Below, piece after piece: positions 27,979-40,304 of a stretch of 64,000 bases of DNA (positions within the stretch are counted from its first letter, which is position 1; each line of letters begins with the position of its first letter). This stretch comes from Deltaproteobacteria bacterium (GTDB lineage Bacteria; Desulfobacterota; Desulfobulbia; Desulfobulbales; Desulfurivibrionaceae), in the NCBI GenBank assembly GCA_013349295.1, contig DUZW01000012.1:1-64000 (forward strand). Reading direction: 5' to 3'. The translations under genes were made by a program, and so were the position numbers. The notes beneath the pieces were generated by a model, which was not told where the DNA came from, made no database searches, and was given only the letters and a program-made list of their open reading frames with translations.

Positions 27979-30432
27979 TTGCCACGTTCCGGACCAAAAA
28001 AAAATCAACTCAAACAGTTTGAAACCATCCGCCGGGAACTGAAAAAGATTGTTCTCGACCAAAACGACGCCATCGACGAGGTGGTGGACGCCTTCATCCA
28101 CATGGCCTTCCGCCCGCCCAAGGAAGCGCCGCCCAAGGCGATCTTCACCTTTCTTGGCCCTCCGGGCGTGGGCAAGATTTATCTGGCCCGGGTTCTCTGC
28201 TCCATGCTGAATGAGTATAAGGGCTTCAAGCACTTCGACTTGGAGCGTTACAGCGATCCGGAAAGCGGCGACCAGCTTCTTGCCCCCCAGATGATCGGCC
28301 AGGAAATCCAGGAAGGCGAATTGATCCGCTTTCTCCGCGCCACCCCCTGCGCCATCATCCTCTTTGAATCCATTGAAATGGCGAGCAACCAGCTGCAGAT
28401 GGCGCTGCTCGACCTGATCAGCAAAGAGGAGCCGGACAGCGGCATCAACTGCCGGGAGGTGATCTTCATCTTTACCTCCACCCTGGGCAGCGCCCTATAC
28501 CAGGGCAAGGAATTCCTGGCCACCTTCCGGCGCAGCAAGGCCCGAGCCCAAAGTCTGATCATGGATGCCATTGCCAAGGAAAAGAAGGTGGCAGGCGAGA
28601 TCATCCAGGACGCCATCGCCCCGAAGCTCTTGGCCACCCTGGCCCAAAACTATATCGTTCTCTTCAACCGGCTGGGCATCAACGCCATGGTCCGCATCGG
28701 CACGGATTCAATGCTGCAGCTGGGCAAGCATTTTCACAAAAAGGGGATTGACCTTGAGTTCCCCGACCTCAACGGGTTGGTTGCCCTTCTGGTGCTCTCC
28801 CTTGGCCCGGCGATTACCGCAAAAAAGGTGAAGCAAAAACTGCCCGACGAGGTACTTTTCAAAATCACCCGCAGCTTAAGGCAATTGTCCACCTCTCCGG
28901 CCCGTATTATCTTCAAGTTGACCAAAAAGGCCGAAGCTTCCCTGCACAAACTCTCCGAGGCGGGCGACCAGCTCCTGCCCATGATCTACAAAAACAACCA
29001 GACCGTGGAGCTGACCTGGAAGGAATACCAACGGGCGGAGAGCCTCATCTTCAGTCTGGTCAAGGCGGAAACCCGCGCCCTGCCCATGGGCAAGGGGTTA
29101 TTGCGCAGCGAACGACCGGCCATCGAATTTTCCGATATTGGTTTCGAGAGCATCGCCGGCAACCGCCAGACCAAAACCACCCTGAAACAAATCATCAACA
29201 CCCTGAAAAATCCGGAACTGGTGAAAAAATTTTCCATCAGCATGCCCAAAGGCATGTTGCTCCATGGCCCACCCGGAGTCGGCAAAACACTGTTAAGCAA
29301 AGCCTTTGCCAGGGAGACCGGTCGTCCCTATATTTATGTCTCACGCACCGAGCTGTTTGACTCCGAGTACATCCGGCTGGTCTATCTCAAGGCACGGGAA
29401 TATGCGCCCAGCATCGTTTTTCTCGACGGCATCGACATCAAGGGACTCATGGAAGGGATGTTGACCGGTGTGCCTTCCGATCAGATTGCCCTTGAAATCG
29501 ACGCGCTTTCCGACGATCCGGAGGAGTCGGTGTTCACCGTGATTACGGCGATGAGCCGGGAGGAAGTCCCCCCCCTGCTCATCGAGCCGGAACGCATCGA
29601 TACCTTTGTCGAGGTGCCGGAACTTGATCGGGAGGCGCGGCGCTTCTTCATCGAGCAGATCCTGAAAAAACCCAACGACGGCAAGATCGATGTGGACAAG
29701 GTGGTGCGCTACATCTCCGGCATGAACGGCTACGAGCTGCAGCGCATCGGCAAGGAGGCCTCCCTCCATGCCATCCGCCACGGACTTGACTGCATCAGCG
29801 AAGAAATCCTCATCGAGCAGATCAACATCATCAAATACGGCTCAAAACTTGAAAAAAGGCATATCAGGAACCTGGAAGAGGATCTGCGCATGACCGCCTT
29901 CCACGAGGCCGGGCATGCGGTGCTCTCCTTCCTGTTGCTCCCGGATGTGAAAATCGAGCAGGTCACCATTGCTCCGCGGTTGCGGACCTTGGGTTTCATC
30001 TCCTACAGCTTCGAGGATTTCCCCAGCAACCTCTCAAAAGAGGAGGTGTTCAACAATATCAGCGTGCTCATGGCCGGAAGAATAGCCGGCATGAAAAAAT
30101 TCGGTCCAAAAGGCATGGACACCGGGGCGACCAGCGACCTTGAAGCGGCGACCCACCAGGCCTACACCGCCATCGCCAGCCTGGGGATGGATGAGGAGCT
30201 GGGCTTTGTCCATGCCGACACCCTGAGCCGCAACGTGAACAAGGAGATGTTCCGGGAGGTGGTGGAACGCCAGGTCCGTCTTTGGATCGACAAAGCCACA
30301 AGAAAGGCCGGGGAACTGGTGGAAACCAACTGGCCTGAAATTGAAACCCTGGCCAATATCCTGATCCGGCAGGAAATTGTCGATGGCGGAGAGCTTGAAA
30401 AGATCATGCAGAAAAAAAGAGGAGCGAAATAA
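27979..30432 (+). CDS. Soluble M41 (FtsH-type) zinc peptidase with two degenerate AAA domains
   Basis: An 817-residue protein with no membrane segments. Residues about 20-200 resemble a Clp-type AAA domain: Walker A-like GPPGVGKI at 60-67, Walker B replaced by IILFES at 126-131. Residues about 380-620 resemble the FtsH AAA domain: GPPGVGKT at 430-437, but Walker B reads FLDGID (483-484, Glu lost), the pore-loop FVG is absent, and the arginine-finger region is EPERID. Residues about 625-810 form an M41 peptidase with HEAGH at 642-646 and the third zinc ligand Asp at 720, so the peptidase looks intact. The start is TTG at 27979 behind GGGAG. It is not a normal FtsH; a separate classical FtsH lies at 38466. 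Confidence 0.85.
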   Translation: MPRSGPKKNQLKQFETIRRELKKIVLDQNDAIDEVVDAFIHMAFRPPKEAPPKAIFTFLGPPGVGKIYLARVLCSMLNEYKGFKHFDLERYSDPESGDQLLAPQMIGQEIQEGELIRFLRATPCAIILFESIEMASNQLQMALLDLISKEEPDSGINCREVIFIFTSTLGSALYQGKEFLATFRRSKARAQSLIMDAIAKEKKVAGEIIQDAIAPKLLATLAQNYIVLFNRLGINAMVRIGTDSMLQLGKHFHKKGIDLEFPDLNGLVALLVLSLGPAITAKKVKQKLPDEVLFKITRSLRQLSTSPARIIFKLTKKAEASLHKLSEAGDQLLPMIYKNNQTVELTWKEYQRAESLIFSLVKAETRALPMGKGLLRSERPAIEFSDIGFESIAGNRQTKTTLKQIINTLKNPELVKKFSISMPKGMLLHGPPGVGKTLLSKAFARETGRPYIYVSRTELFDSEYIRLVYLKAREYAPSIVFLDGIDIKGLMEGMLTGVPSDQIALEIDALSDDPEESVFTVITAMSREEVPPLLIEPERIDTFVEVPELDREARRFFIEQILKKPNDGKIDVDKVVRYISGMNGYELQRIGKEASLHAIRHGLDCISEEILIEQINIIKYGSKLEKRHIRNLEEDLRMTAFHEAGHAVLSFLLLPDVKIEQVTIAPRLRTLGFISYSFEDFPSNLSKEEVFNNISVLMAGRIAGMKKFGPKGMDTGATSDLEAATHQAYTAIASLGMDEELGFVHADTLSRNVNKEMFREVVERQVRLWIDKATRKAGELVETNWPEIETLANILIRQEIVDGGELEKIMQKKRGAK

Positions 30433-30476: not shown

Positions 30477-31418
30477 ATGCATCGGATCATTGTCACAGGC
30501 GCGACCGGCCAAATCGGTTCGGAACTGGTGCCGGCCCTGCGTGAACGATATGGAGCGGCCAATGTCATCGCCGTAGGCCACAAGAAAACACCGCCACCGG
30601 AACTGCTTGAGCTCGGGCCCTATGCGGCGCTGGACATCCGTGAGCAAAGCGCCCTCGCCGCCTTGGTCGAACTGGAGCGGATCGACACCATCTACCACCT
30701 GGCCGCCCTGCTCTCCGCCACGGCCGAGGCAAATCCTCTGCACGCCTGGGAGATCAACATGGGCGGACTCCTCAATGTGCTGGAGGTGGCCCGCCTTAAC
30801 AACTGCGCTGTCTTCCATCCCAGCTCCATCGGTGCCTTCGGCCCCTCCACCCCGCCCGATCATACCCCGCAGGTGACCATCCAGCGACCCAACACCATGT
30901 ACGGCGTGACGAAAGTAAGCGGCGAACTGCTCTGCGACTATTACCACAGCCGCTTCGGGTTAGACATCCGGGGCCTTCGCTTTCCCGGCCTCATCTCCCA
31001 CAAGACCCCGCCCGGTGGCGGCACCACCGACTATGCGGTCGAGATCTTTCCCGCCGCCCTTACGGAAAAAAAATACACCTGTTTTCTGAAAAAAGGCACC
31101 TATCTGGACATGATGTACATGCCGGACGCCATCCGGGCCGCCATGGAGATCATGGAAGCGGAACCGGGCCGCTTACGCCATCGCAACGCCTACAACCTCA
31201 CGGCCATGAGTTTTGCCCCGGAGGAGCTGGCTGCGGAGATTTCTCTCCATATCCCGGGCTTTACCATCTCCTATCAGCCGGACCCTGTTCGCCAGGCCAT
31301 TGCCGATTCCTGGCCCAACAGCCTGGACGACAGCGCCGCCCGCGCGGATTGGGGCTGGCAGCCAAGATTCGGCCTTGCGGAAATGACTGCGGAGATGCTG
31401 GCTGCCCTTTCCGGCTGA
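30477..31418 (+). CDS. NAD-dependent epimerase/dehydratase, probable L-threonine 3-dehydrogenase
   Basis: A 313-residue extended SDR protein. The NAD-binding glycine motif is TGATGQIGSEL, and the catalytic triad is visible as Ser in HPSSIGAFG and the YxxxK motif in YGVTKVSGE. The sequence follows SDR-type threonine dehydrogenases (MYMPDAIRAAMEIMEA, NAYNLTAMSFAPEELA) rather than sugar epimerases. The next gene encodes a 2-amino-3-ketobutyrate CoA ligase, so the pair would convert threonine to glycine and acetyl-CoA. The family is certain; the substrate is supported by the neighbour. Confidence 0.85.
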   Translation: MHRIIVTGATGQIGSELVPALRERYGAANVIAVGHKKTPPPELLELGPYAALDIREQSALAALVELERIDTIYHLAALLSATAEANPLHAWEINMGGLLNVLEVARLNNCAVFHPSSIGAFGPSTPPDHTPQVTIQRPNTMYGVTKVSGELLCDYYHSRFGLDIRGLRFPGLISHKTPPGGGTTDYAVEIFPAALTEKKYTCFLKKGTYLDMMYMPDAIRAAMEIMEAEPGRLRHRNAYNLTAMSFAPEELAAEISLHIPGFTISYQPDPVRQAIADSWPNSLDDSAARADWGWQPRFGLAEMTAEMLAALSG

Positions 31419-31462
31419 AGCAGAGCAGAAAAAAGCCAACCCCTCCCCAAGGAGCCGCCCAC

Positions 31463-32692
31463 ATGTCGCTTAGGAAAATAAAACCGCTATTTGCCGACAA
31501 GCTTGCCGCCTTGGACATACAAGCTGCCCGCAAGGGCCGGGAACGGGTGACCACCGCCATCATCCCGGCAAAGGAAGGCTTCGGACCCCGCTGCCACCTG
31601 GCTGGCCACGGCGACCGGAAGTTTCTACGGATGAACTCCAACTCCTACCTGGGTCTCTCCCAGCACCCGGCAGTGATTGGGGCGGCAGAGGAAGCGGCCC
31701 GCCGTTTCGGCGCAGGACCGGGAGCGGTGCGCTTTATCAGCGGCACCTGCCTGGCGCACACGGAACTGGAAGAAAAGCTGGCCCGCTTCCATGGCCGCGA
31801 GGCGGCGATGATCATGAGTTCCGCCTATGCCACGGTCATGGGAGTGCTGCCCCAGCTGATCACGGAAGAAACCCTGGTGGTGAGCGATGCACTGAACCAC
31901 AACTGCATCATCAACGCCATCCGCCTGGCACAACCGAGAGCCAAGGCGGTATACCGCCATCTGGACATGGAGGATCTCACCGCAAGACTATCGGATTTCC
32001 GTGGCCGGGCAAAACGGGTGGTCGTAGTCACCGACGGCGTCTTCAGCATGCGGGGCGACCACGCGCCCTTGGCCGAGCTGACCGCGCTCTGCCTGGGGCT
32101 TGAAGATGACTTTCCCGAGGGCATCATCACGGTGGCCGACGACTCGCACGGAGTCGGAGCCTTTGGCCCAAGCGGTCGCGGCAGCGAGGAGCACACCAAC
32201 AGCCGGGTGGATATCCTGATCGGTACTCTGGGCAAGGGTTTTGGCATCAACGGCGGCTATGTGGTGGGCGATTCACTTTTTATCGATTACCTGCGAGAAA
32301 CCGCACCCTTCTATATCTACTCAAACCCCATCACCCCGGCGGAGGCGGCAGCGGCAAGCAAGGCCCTCGATATCGTGGACAGCAGCGCAGGCGTGCTCCT
32401 GCTTGAAAAATTGCAAAGCTCAAGAAAATTATTTACCCACGGCCTTGAAAGCCTTGGCTATGAAAGTATCGCCGGGGATCACCCCATTGTACCGCTCATT
32501 ATCCGCGACACCGCAAAAACCGCCAGACTCGTGACCCACCTTTTTGCACACGACATCCTGGCCACCGGCCTCAACTATCCGGTGGTCCCCAAGGGCGACG
32601 AAGAAATCCGCTTCCAGCTCAATGCCGGCCACACCGAAAAAGATATCGAGTTCCTCCTTGGGGCACTGAAGTCCTTTACGGGGAAGAGATAG
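31463..32692 (+). CDS. kbl: 2-amino-3-ketobutyrate CoA ligase-like PLP enzyme
   Basis: About 409 residues of the alpha-oxoamine synthase family. It shows NSNSYLGLSQHPAVI, RFISGTCLAHTELEEKLA, VADDSHGVGAFG and the PLP-binding Lys in GTLGKGFGINGGY. With the upstream dehydrogenase it would cleave 2-amino-3-ketobutyrate with CoA to glycine and acetyl-CoA. The start is ATG 31463 with AAGGAG eight bases upstream; an open frame extends to 31349 inside the previous gene. Other family members (8-amino-7-oxononanoate synthase, serine palmitoyltransferase) are less likely given the partner. Confidence 0.88.
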   Translation: MSLRKIKPLFADKLAALDIQAARKGRERVTTAIIPAKEGFGPRCHLAGHGDRKFLRMNSNSYLGLSQHPAVIGAAEEAARRFGAGPGAVRFISGTCLAHTELEEKLARFHGREAAMIMSSAYATVMGVLPQLITEETLVVSDALNHNCIINAIRLAQPRAKAVYRHLDMEDLTARLSDFRGRAKRVVVVTDGVFSMRGDHAPLAELTALCLGLEDDFPEGIITVADDSHGVGAFGPSGRGSEEHTNSRVDILIGTLGKGFGINGGYVVGDSLFIDYLRETAPFYIYSNPITPAEAAAASKALDIVDSSAGVLLLEKLQSSRKLFTHGLESLGYESIAGDHPIVPLIIRDTAKTARLVTHLFAHDILATGLNYPVVPKGDEEIRFQLNAGHTEKDIEFLLGALKSFTGKR

Positions 32693-32820: not shown

Positions 32821-33168
32821 ATGCAGGATTTCATCAAGGTCATGAAGGCCCTTTCCGACCCGAATCGGGTCAAGGTTCTGAAAATGCTCCAGCTGAAAAA
32901 GAAGATGTGCGTCTGCGAGATACGGGCGGTGCTCAACCTCGCCCAACCCACCGTATCCAAACACCTCAAGGTTCTGGAAGAGGCTGGGCTCATAGTGGGC
33001 AAAAAGGAAAAGCTCTGGGTCAACTACCGGCTCAATACCACCTGCGCTTCTCCCCATGGAGCCGCCATGCTCACCCAGCTTAAAAAATGGCTGAACGAAG
33101 ATCCGGAGATAGCGGAAATCCATGCACTCCTGCCCTCCATCGACCGCAAGGTTCTTTGTCGAATATAG
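32821..33168 (+). CDS. arsR: ArsR-family metalloregulator
   Basis: A 115-residue winged-helix repressor with ALSDPNRVKVLKML and the recognition helix LNLAQPTVSKHLKVLEEAGL. The CVCE sequence after helix 3 holds the paired Cys typical of As(III)-sensing ArsR proteins. Metal binding would release DNA and induce the arsenite efflux gene downstream. It is the first gene of the operon, 32 bases before acr3. Confidence 0.92.
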   Translation: MQDFIKVMKALSDPNRVKVLKMLQLKKKMCVCEIRAVLNLAQPTVSKHLKVLEEAGLIVGKKEKLWVNYRLNTTCASPHGAAMLTQLKKWLNEDPEIAEIHALLPSIDRKVLCRI

Positions 33169-33199
33169 CTGACAAAACAACTTAACGGAGACTCAGAAA

Positions 33200-34285
33200 A
33201 TGTCCCCAGGCAAACACCTCTCCTTTTTCGACCGTTTCCTCACCCTTTGGATATTCCTCGCCATGCTTTTCGGAGTCATGGCAGGATATTTCTCCCCCGG
33301 CCTCAAGGATCTGATCAATTCCTTTCAGGTGGGAACCACCAATATCCCCATCGCCATCGGCCTGATCCTTATGATGTATCCACCCCTTGCCAAGGTGCGT
33401 TACGAAAAACTGCACGAGGTCTTCCGCAACGGCAGGATTCTACTGCTCTCGCTGGCACAGAACTGGCTCATCGGCCCGATCCTCATGTTTGCTCTTGCCG
33501 TCGCCTTTCTCTCGGCCCAACACGAATACATGGTGGGCCTCATCCTCATCGGCCTGGCACGCTGCATCGCCATGGTCATCGTCTGGAACGATCTGGCCGA
33601 GGGCGACCGGGAATACTGCGCGGGGCTGGTCGCCTTCAACTCCATCTTCCAGATTCTTTTCTTTTCGCTCTATGCCTGGATCTTCCTCAGCGTCATTCCC
33701 GGCTGGTTGGGGCTGCAAGGTGCAGTTGTCGATATCTCCATGGGCCAGATCGCCGAATCGGTCTTTATCTATCTCGGCATCCCTTTTATCGCCGGCATCC
33801 TCACCCGCTTCATCGGCATCAAAACAAAGGGCGAAACATGGCTTGAGGAAAAGCTGCTGCCGAAAATCAGCCCCCTCACCCTTATCTTTCTCCTCTTCAC
33901 CATCGTGGTCATGTTTTCCCTCAAGGGCGAATACATTGTCCAACTGCCCCTTGACGTGGTGCGCATCGCCATTCCGCTCTCCATCTATTTTCTGGTGATG
34001 TTCCTGCTTTCCTTTTTCCTCTCCATGAAGGCCGGCGCCACCTACGAACAGTCCGCCACCCTCTCCTTCACCGCGGCCAGCAACAATTTCGAACTGGCCA
34101 TCGCCGTGGCCATCGCCGTGTTCGGCATCGATTCAGGCCAGGCCTTCGCCGCGGTGATCGGACCGCTGGTCGAGGTGCCGATACTGATAAGCCTTGTCAA
34201 CGTGGCTTTACGGTTCAGAAAAAAATATTTCCCAGTTGCCAGGCATACCCCTGCCGGCCTCTGTCATTTTTCCGGCAAACCCTGA
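33200..34285 (+). CDS. acr3: Arsenite efflux permease, Acr3 type
   Basis: A 361-residue membrane protein with about ten helices of the bile acid/Na+ symporter fold. Family motifs include [37 protein letters not shown] with the conserved Cys needed for transport, and [20 protein letters not shown] near the C-terminus. It exports arsenite using the membrane potential. It follows arsR and is followed by a Cys-rich DUF2703 gene. Confidence 0.95.
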
Positions 34286-38465: not shown

Positions 38466-40304
38466 ATGCGCAATTCCCAGCGCGCGCTATTTATTTTTTC
38501 ATTCATCATACTCCTTGCCGGGCTTTGCACCTTTTTTTGGTGGATCGAAACGCGGTTGCCTGTCATCAGCTATAATGATTTTCTAGCTCATCTGGACAGC
38601 GGCGATGTAACCGAACTCCATATCAATGGTAACGAGATCGCCATCACTGACACTGGCGGTCGCCGTTACGCTGCCTACACCCCTGATATCCCCGGGCTCA
38701 TGCCCCTTTTGTTGGAAAAACATCTCCCGGTGACAATAGAGCCGGACCGATCCGCTATGTTGGTGAATATTTTCACCATTACCCTGCCCTTGGCTCTCAT
38801 TGCTCTTTTCTGGCTGCTTTATCAAAAAGCGAGTACGTCCGCCGACGATGACTCTGATTTTGCAGGGAAAAAGGCGATCGTCTTGGACAACAGCAACAAA
38901 AAGGTCACCTTCAGGGATGTGGCCGGAATCCCGGAAGTAAAGGATGAGCTGCTCCAAATCGTTGACTTTCTGCAACGTCCCAAAAAATACTTGAAACTAG
39001 GCGCGACAATCCCCAAGGGGGTCCTGCTGATAGGATCACCCGGCACGGGAAAGACTTTGCTTGCCCGCGCCATTGCCGGTGAGGCAGGGGTGCCTTTTTT
39101 CAGCATCAGCGGCTCTGATTTCGTCGAGATGTTCGTCGGCGTGGGAGCTTCCCGGGTCCGTGATCTTTTCAAGGAAGCGAAAAAGAAAACACCCTGTATC
39201 ATTTTTATCGATGAAATCGATGCGGTTGGCGGCCACCGAGGCGGTGGCGGCGCAGGCGCAGGCGGCCTCGAGGAGCGGGCGCAAACGCTGAACGCACTTT
39301 TGGTTGAAATGGACGGCTTTGGGCGCGAAGTCAATATCATTGTTATTGCCGCGACCAACCGGCCGGACATTCTGGATCCGGCCCTGCTGCGCCCCGGTCG
39401 CTTTGACCGGCAGGTAACCCTGCTGCCGCCGGATGTGAAGGGACGGGTGAAAATCCTCCAGGTTCACACGCAGAAAGTGCCGCTTGCAAGTGGCGTCGCA
39501 CTTGAGGATATCGCTCGCGCCACCCCGGGCTTTACCGGAGCGCAGCTGGCCAATCTGGTTAATGAAGCGGCGTTAACCGCGGCACAAGAAGACAAAGAAC
39601 AGATTGAGATCTCCGACTTTGAGACGGCAAAGGATCGCATTCTCATGGGGGCGGAACGCAAAGGGCTGGTGATCAGCGACTCTGATCGACAAACCATGGC
39701 GTATCACGAGGTTGGGCATGCCATTGTTGCCCATTTCCTGCCAAATTCCGATCCATTGCATAAAATCACCATCATTCCCCGCGGCAGAGCCATGGGGCAT
39801 ACCCAGCAGACACCGCTTGGCGATCGACACTCTTACTCAAAGGAATACCTTCAGAATCGGATTACCATCTTCCTGGGTGGGCGTGCGGCGGAAGAGGTTG
39901 CCCTGCAGCAACAAACCACCGGAGCAGAAGATGATTTGCGACGCGCCACGGAAATAGCCACTAAAATGGTCTGTCGCTGGGGGATGAATGAAGTGATTGG
40001 ACCGATGGCCTATGTCGGCGGAGAAGAAGGCTTTCTCGGCGAACAGGCAGGTGTCGGCGCCCATAGTGAAGAGACTGCGCGCCTCGTTGATCACGAGGTC
40101 AAGAAACTGCTGGAAGTTTGCTATGCGCAAGCCTTGGAAATCCTCAAACGTGAGGAAAACGCCCTGCGCGATTTGTCTGAGGTGCTGCTGCAGACGGAAA
40201 CCATTGATCGGGAAGAGATGGATATTATTCTCCGCTGTGCCAACAAAAAACAGCAGGCAGTTGAGACTGAGAACGCATGCCGTCCACCGACGGAAAAGAG
40301 CTGA
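38466..40304 (+). CDS. ftsH: ATP-dependent zinc metalloprotease FtsH
   Basis: A 612-residue membrane protease with two N-terminal segments (about 8-27 and 98-118) around a small periplasmic domain. The AAA domain is intact: GSPGTGKT at 190-197, IIFIDE at 245-250, pore loop [10 protein letters not shown] and arginine fingers in LRPGRFDRQ. The zinc motif is HEVGH at 414-418 where most relatives have HEAGH; the helix context is unchanged, so activity is likely. FtsH degrades misassembled membrane proteins and short-lived regulators. It is followed 158 bases later by a multihaem cytochrome gene. GAGGAG precedes the ATG. Confidence 0.92.

Follow-up and report, generated by a model that had tools for sequence, protein, structure and literature searches.

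AAA proteases are thought to require ATP for feeding their cutting chamber. Among relatives of FtsH, the plant FtsHi proteins are pseudo-proteases that have lost one of the two activities. A described departure from ATP dependence is found in the Lon family: MtaLonC is a soluble Lon with a degenerate AAA module that forms a hexamer without ATPase activity, has six nucleotides bound per hexamer, and needs no ATP to degrade unfolded proteins, while folded ones are not degraded (PMC3391209). The gene analysed here lies in a 64,000-nucleotide stretch of deltaproteobacterial DNA (the window, meaning that whole stretch), and its product has the sequence features of a LonC-like protein, namely an intact protease, AAA domains without a full catalytic set, and no membrane segment. 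The protease belongs to a different family, M41, and is preceded by two AAA domains, D1 and D2. The gene and its domains, together with the FtsH gene used for comparison, are as follows.

27979..30432, plus strand: complete open reading frame of 817 amino acids for the tandem-AAA M41 protease, with a TTG start codon
27965..27971, plus strand: Shine-Dalgarno-like AAGGGAG, 7 nt 5′ of the TTG start, read from the sequence
28006..28878, plus strand: D1, AAA domain of HSP100/ClpB NBD2 type (residues 10-300; AAA_2, profile search, AlphaFold and Foldseek)
28879..29124, plus strand: fast-evolving linker or beta region joining D1 and D2 (residues 301-382)
29125..29853, plus strand: D2, FtsH-type AAA domain, ATPase-degenerate (residues 383-625; Pfam AAA, dN/dS, Foldseek)
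29872..30414, plus strand: M41 metalloprotease domain (residues 632-812; PF01434, 107.1 bits)
38466..40304, plus strand: classical membrane FtsH of 612 amino acids, for comparison only and outside the system (TIGR01241, 725.5 bits, cut-off 600)

The first-pass annotation described a soluble M41 peptidase joined to two degenerate AAA domains, and the profile matches bear this out. In particular, Peptidase_M41 matches residues 634-809 well above the Pfam cut-off of 29.9 bits, while AAA (76.1 bits, residues 426-547) and AAA_2 (53.3 bits, residues 52-199) also exceed their cut-offs, and both AAA domains have lost motifs. The protein scores 211.1 bits against the FtsH model TIGR01241, below the curated cut-off of 600. 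Five M41 genes are present in the genome: the tandem-AAA gene and four higher-scoring genes with open frames of 613-634 amino acids, one of which is the classical FtsH that the annotation had correctly placed 8 kb away, inside the window. Hydropathy, used as the only predictor and averaged over 19 residues, reveals no convincing membrane segment, as had been claimed; the maximum is 1.59, at residues 261-279 within D1, whereas the neighbouring FtsH reaches 2.42 at its residues 7-25.

The best Foldseek matches of a full-length structure model (pLDDT 82.5, pTM 0.67) include structures of FtsH, AFG3L2, and YME1. Whole-chain TM scores against FtsH are low (0.24-0.71, normalized by target length), and the placement of the domains relative to each other is therefore uncertain. 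The solved structures that score best against the protein are VCP/Cdc48, FtsH, AFG3L2, and Afg2 chains, and no close family member is present among these best 60 of 311 structure matches. Separately, the AAA-M41 part (P0001, residues 387-814) matches phrog_30773, a PHROGs family of unknown function with a profile length of 666, at 174 bits, indicating that FtsH-like M41 proteins exist among sequences filed as phage.

The zinc site consists of two elements.

29902..29916, plus strand: zinc motif HEAGH (residues 642-646)
30136..30138, plus strand: Asp720, the third zinc ligand by alignment with FtsH

Both are intact, as first annotated, and the His, Glu, His, and Asp residues are retained in 89 of 90 family members. 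By its sequence, the window protein is an M41 metalloprotease with an intact zinc site and is predicted to be proteolytic.

A profile of the N-terminal part searched against solved structures found ClpB, ClpC, and Hsp104, and an AlphaFold model of D1 (pLDDT 86.9, pTM 0.83) has the ClpB C-terminal domain as its best Foldseek match (4fcv, E 2.2e-16). As judged by profile and modelled fold, D1 is homologous to HSP100 NBD2. Its nucleotide-binding motifs are altered at two positions.

28156..28179, plus strand: D1 Walker A, GPPGVGKI (Thr replaced by Ile)
28351..28377, plus strand: D1 Walker B region, AIILFESIE, with DE lost (ClpB has LFDE there)

The catalytic Walker A and Walker B residues of HSP100/Clp proteins are thus absent, with GKI and ES in their place; the missing Walker B DE of a Clp-like N-terminal domain had been recognized in the first pass. 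Sensor 1 of D1 is altered as well, and the segment aligned with the ClpB GYVG loop reads APQMIGQ, without an aromatic pore loop.

D2 is altered at more positions, with Walker A spared.

29266..29289, plus strand: D2 Walker A, GPPGVGKT, intact (residues 430-437)
29359..29367, plus strand: site of a six-residue deletion, where FtsH pore loop 1 (FVG) is gone
29416..29436, plus strand: D2 Walker B, VFLDGID (residues 480-486), with Glu484 replaced by Gly and Asp483 kept
29539..29607, plus strand: D2 sensor 1 and second region of homology (SRH), with ATN and the first arginine lost and Arg539 kept

The loss of the Walker B glutamate, the FVG pore loop, and an arginine finger had been claimed for this domain, and alignment of the Walker B and pore-loop columns with FtsH confirms it: residue 484 is Gly, the pore-loop deletion spans six residues, and the first SRH arginine is Glu536, with the second, Arg539, retained. 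The pore-loop-1 segment has 3 residues in 90/90 family members versus 9 in 27/27 FtsH-like controls, and phmmer alignments to VCP-like ATPases have a gap at the same spot. This loss of pore loop 1 in D2 removes grip. Several further alterations had gone unmentioned: the D1 Walker A change; sensor 1 of both domains (TAM in place of ATN in D2); the DGF motif, which is missing from the D2 sequence; and the length of the stretch after the D2 Walker B (17-23 residues in the family versus 25-31 in controls), within which the second pore loop lies.

A survey for the two-AAA/M41 layout, which the first-pass annotation had suggested, revealed a real family, with members in Campylobacterota as well as in the window's phylum. 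Motifs were counted in 90 members, aligned by MAFFT L-INS-i with 27 FtsH-like proteins (the zinc site is intact in 25 and lost in the other two, which are membrane paralogs); the members include close relatives, so that the counts are non-independent, and 12 partial or split copies were left out (L005, L016, L017, L049, L051, L065, L067, L068, L077, L106, L107, and L148). Pore loop 1 is absent from all 90, whereas the FtsH-like controls keep the pore loop and Walker B in 27/27 and the zinc site in 25/27. Residue 484 is Glu in 10 members, Asp in 41, Gly in 37, Ser in 1, and Asn in 1. Retention of the zinc site in 89/90, while Glu484 is retained in 10/90 and pore loop 1 in 0/90, supports loss of the motor.

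The family divides into four groups: motif-intact proteins (n = 5; D2 DE in 5, sensor ATN in 5, both SRH arginines in 5, zinc site in 4); full-length proteins of the window's phylum (n = 35; D2 DE in 1, ATN in 0, first arginine in 0, second arginine in 35, zinc site in 35, D2 Walker A in 34); Campylobacterota-type full-length proteins (n = 22; D2 DE in 4, ATN in 0, first arginine in 3, second arginine in 22, zinc site in 22); and a short form without D1 (n = 28 rows, one of which, L090, is a full form cut by a contig end; D2 DE in 0, ATN in 0, second arginine in 1, zinc site in 28). Missing pore loops had been counted as a sign of a dead motor; since the five relatives with intact D2 ATPase motifs also lack pore loop 1, its loss cannot serve as such a sign alone. 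Two sequence variations were observed in passing. One short form (L149, 742-2826) carries a long extension at its N terminus that matches no Pfam family at E 0.001. In Campylobacterota full-length proteins such as L072, L075, L078, and L115, the Walker B DE has become ED in parallel in two separate domains, D1 (FEDIE, LEDIE) and D2 (LEDID).

The order of events was read from a tree of 45 D2-M41 rows, built with the motif columns removed and rooted on classical FtsH. L146/L147 branch first. Next comes an open fork that includes L152 and L116/L122; the D2 ATPase motifs of all five are intact, and the 30 decayed rows form a single clade (support 100/100). The branch above L146/L147 has a support of 93/90, and two further trees give the same branching order. 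The tree implies that the ancestor was ATP-driven and that the motor decayed later, with the protease retained. At the position of the ClpB GYVG loop, the D1 segments of the five motif-intact members read RFWG, AGYK, AGYK, FKYS, and AGWK (QMIG in the window protein), and four of the five keep the D1 Walker B DE and the sensor-1 Asn. These aromatic residues and the D1 DE suggest that the ancestor was likely a soluble M41 protease with tandem AAA domains, driven by D1, whose D2 already lacked pore loop 1. D1 had been regarded as an odd extra; instead, the family started out with the tandem layout, and the short form arose from it by dropping D1. To explain which members have Glu484, at least three changes must be placed on the tree. 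One loss and two regains would be consistent with this; if regain never happens, the Glu must have been lost separately three or four times.

One family member departs in the other direction. L122 (844-3534), the second family copy in Sulfurovum sp. AR, has intact D2 motifs and YEAGR in place of HEAGH, and the same genome carries a short form, L119, that is ATPase-dead with an intact zinc site. Among the 24 positives of its phylum, no other genome has two matches at the threshold used, and it is conceivable that L122 and L119 act as a complementary pair in this one genome. The family was also compared with Campylobacterota membrane FtsH paralogs of 480-560 amino acids, which we take to be HP0286 and Cj0377, and identity with them was rejected: L130 (1033-2712) and L131 (1189-2637) are in the opposite state, with AAA motifs, Walker B, and pore loop kept and HEXXH lost (YQGAK, YQAAK). 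Presence of the tandem form in the phylum of the Clostridia genome G354 was likewise rejected. Matches to the motif-intact query L146 occurred there in 21 of 199 genomes, and each of the 23 matches listed covers the D2-M41 part only, like classical FtsH.

Selection was estimated by the Nei-Gojobori method from 16 close orthologs (120 pairs; 119 for the linker). Median dN/dS is 0.073 for D2, 0.132 for M41, 0.155 for D1, and 0.208 for the linker; all parts are under purifying selection, with the lowest ratio in the dead D2. D2 evolves more slowly than M41, the opposite of what decay would produce, which argues for a maintained structural or regulatory role of D2, and conservation of the dead D2 above all other parts among close orthologs indicates that the gene is not dying.

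The family is patchily distributed. It is present in 19 of 58 relatives, 9 of 17 genomes of the window's genus, 42 of 242 genomes of its order (43 before removal of G679, a classical FtsH with 34% identity over residues 373-810), 4 of 297 genomes sampled from its phylum (its own genome included), and 24 of 249 genomes of the phylum of G346 (Sulfurovum sp. AR); many of the surveyed genomes are incomplete assemblies, so that absence from any single genome is uncertain. A scan of genome contigs assigned 72 of 74 loci to the family, some loci being fragments of a single gene (the exceptions are L108 and L109). The limit to two phyla, the window's own and Campylobacterota, holds for the sampled genomes alone. 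Split or partial copies occur in five genomes of the order (G016, G652, G691, G736, and G753), and matches in three others (G006, G627, and G671) have one stop inside the matched range. Presence in 9 of 17 genomes of the genus and the five broken copies mark the gene as accessory, and its patchy presence and broken copies in relatives as dispensable. Two copies from related genomes, L065 and L068, have differing indels at codons 446-447 in the window's numbering (+2 and −4 relative to the window), a product of decay, assembly error, or a hotspot.

The reading we favour, with moderate confidence, is that the window protein is a soluble chambered M41 metalloprotease in which peptide cleavage and an AAA-ring scaffold survive and ATP-driven unfolding has been lost. 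On the anatomy, conservation, history, and selection described above, we would expect assembly, nucleotide binding, and ATP-independent cleavage to proceed as follows. By analogy with FtsH and LonC, six subunits would stack a double AAA ring on a ring of M41 domains; D2, with Walker A, Asp483, and Arg539 kept, would bind ATP without turnover and thereby stabilize the ring; and unfolded or pre-fragmented polypeptides would diffuse through the loop-less pore and be cut without ATP. The protein would then be to M41 what LonC is to Lon, its ATP-independent counterpart. The first-pass annotation had proposed an FtsH-related protease of the cytoplasm whose ATP-driven unfolding may be weak, which would change its substrate range; predicted weak or even absent unfolding fits the sequence and a pattern conserved across the family. 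Several observations count against the favoured reading: conservation of Arg539, Walker A, and an acidic residue 492 in the window's group could mean a working nucleotide cycle; L111 and L132-L135, within the decayed clade, still have the D2 DE, so that some family members may still hydrolyse ATP; the whole-chain TM scores against FtsH are low; the gene, patchy and broken in some relatives, is dispensable; and the neighbours in 76 stretches give no substrate hint conserved across groups.

More tentatively, the D2 ring may be an ATP-locked, non-hydrolysing, nucleotide-sensing gate on the M41 chamber, which would make the protein an energy-sensing, motor-less protease derived from an HSP100-FtsH hybrid with D1 as the original motor. 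This possibility draws on D2 being the most conserved part, on the retention of its Walker A, Asp483, and Arg539, and on the removal of its pore loop.

The strongest rival to a general ATP-independent protease is a site-specific processing or regulatory protease, in which the AAA rings would be a partner-binding scaffold and M41 would make a limited cut; we consider it rather unlikely. The high conservation of D2 would suit it, as would the patchy presence in the order, appropriate to a specialized job. It would also suit the 27 D2-M41 columns that are fixed (≥95%) in the family and occur in <20% of FtsH-like controls, several of which are at the lid-protease junction (E608, I610, N616, K619, and Y620), as expected of a specific interface. 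Against it, neighbour clustering of the 76 stretches, with 11 cluster representatives inspected, found no operon or partner gene conserved across groups, and these representatives read as unrelated genes by sequence (uracil phosphoribosyltransferase, P-type ATPase, antiporter, permease, polysaccharide genes, and others). A linkage is present in the window's own group: at 30477-32692, an epimerase-like gene lies 45 bp downstream of the protease gene and is followed by a Kbl/BioF-like acyltransferase gene. Of 75 loci searched, L009, L039, L052, and L046 (from the L012 genome) also have the epimerase-like gene 3′ of the protease gene; the Kbl/BioF-like gene comes next in L046 and L052, and partly so in L012 and L009. 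This linkage is a local exception within that group. Further along the window, at 32821-34285, are genes for an ArsR-type regulator and then an ACR3 arsenite efflux transporter (454 bits).

It is less probable still that the protein is an ATP-driven unfoldase after all, with unusual residues standing in for canonical ones. D2 Walker A, Asp483, and Arg539 are retained in the window's group, Glu484 is present in ten family members, and residue 492 is acidic in 34/35 of the window's group, all of which would fit a working motor. However, in the window protein Glu484, the sensor-1 Asn, the first SRH arginine, the DGF motif, and pore loop 1 are all gone from D2, and D1 has neither the Walker A Thr nor the DE of Walker B. 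Nor does residue 492 behave as a substitute: it is acidic in only 6/22 Campylobacterota full-length proteins and in 0/28 short-form rows, and L111 and L132 have Glu492 alongside Glu484, indicating that Glu492 was not acquired upon loss of Glu484. A displaced catalytic glutamate had been named as the observation that would overturn the annotation; residue 492, from its distribution, does not look like a replacement for Glu484, there is no family-wide replacement, and the residue may have a role specific to the window's group.

We regard as improbable to a high degree a peptidase fed by a separate unfoldase docked on D1, as ClpX and ClpA feed ClpP. A gated, motor-less M41 chamber could in principle be served by another AAA protein, but no unfoldase gene is a recurrent neighbour in the 76 stretches; the one cluster of about 858 amino acids (six loci) reads by sequence as a P-type ATPase, not ClpB. 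Scarcely credible is a functionless, decaying paralog redundant with the four classical FtsH proteins, which the split or partial copies in five genomes (two with indels at codons 446-447) might suggest, but which dN/dS well under 1 in all domains (120 pairs) and a zinc site kept in 89/90 members across two phyla contradict.

Two other assignments were rejected. Membership of a defence system was considered, and the PADLOC matches are AAA proteins that align with P-loop regions only (best 56.5 bits, residues 394-455). A plasmid-borne gene was considered, and no plasmid match was found at E 1e-60. The titles and abstract openings found by searching an open-licence paper library, a scope that leaves most subscription journals outside, contain no description of the architecture.

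Returning to the favoured reading of a motor-less, chambered M41 protease, the family provides a natural series within one architecture: motif-intact proteins, proteins with a D2 DE and without D1 catalytic motifs, motor-dead proteins, and short forms without D1. One member adds the reverse loss, a broken zinc site with intact D2 motifs. Comparing the series would separate the role of the ring as a scaffold from its role as a motor. It would also reveal whether M41, like Lon, gave rise to chambered proteolysis that is independent of ATP.

Comparison with known systems places the window protein among several families. With FtsH, m-AAA, and i-AAA proteases (TIGR01241, M41), it shares an FtsH-type AAA domain joined to M41 and the HEXXH motif with its Asp; unlike them, it has no membrane anchor recognizable by hydropathy and no D2 pore loop 1 or Walker B Glu, and it has an added HSP100-type AAA domain. 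With ClpB, ClpC, and Hsp104, it shares D1, homologous to NBD2 in sequence and fold, whereas its D1 lacks the catalytic residues and is fused to an FtsH-type AAA domain and M41. FtsHi and the L130/L131 paralogs are likewise FtsH relatives with one activity lost, but in reverse, with the AAA domain intact and the zinc site lost. LonC (MtaLonC, TTC1975) is likewise soluble, with an intact protease and a degenerate AAA module (PMC3391209), a likeness read from the sequence of the window protein; it differs in having a Lon protease domain and one AAA module, in contrast to M41 and two AAA domains.
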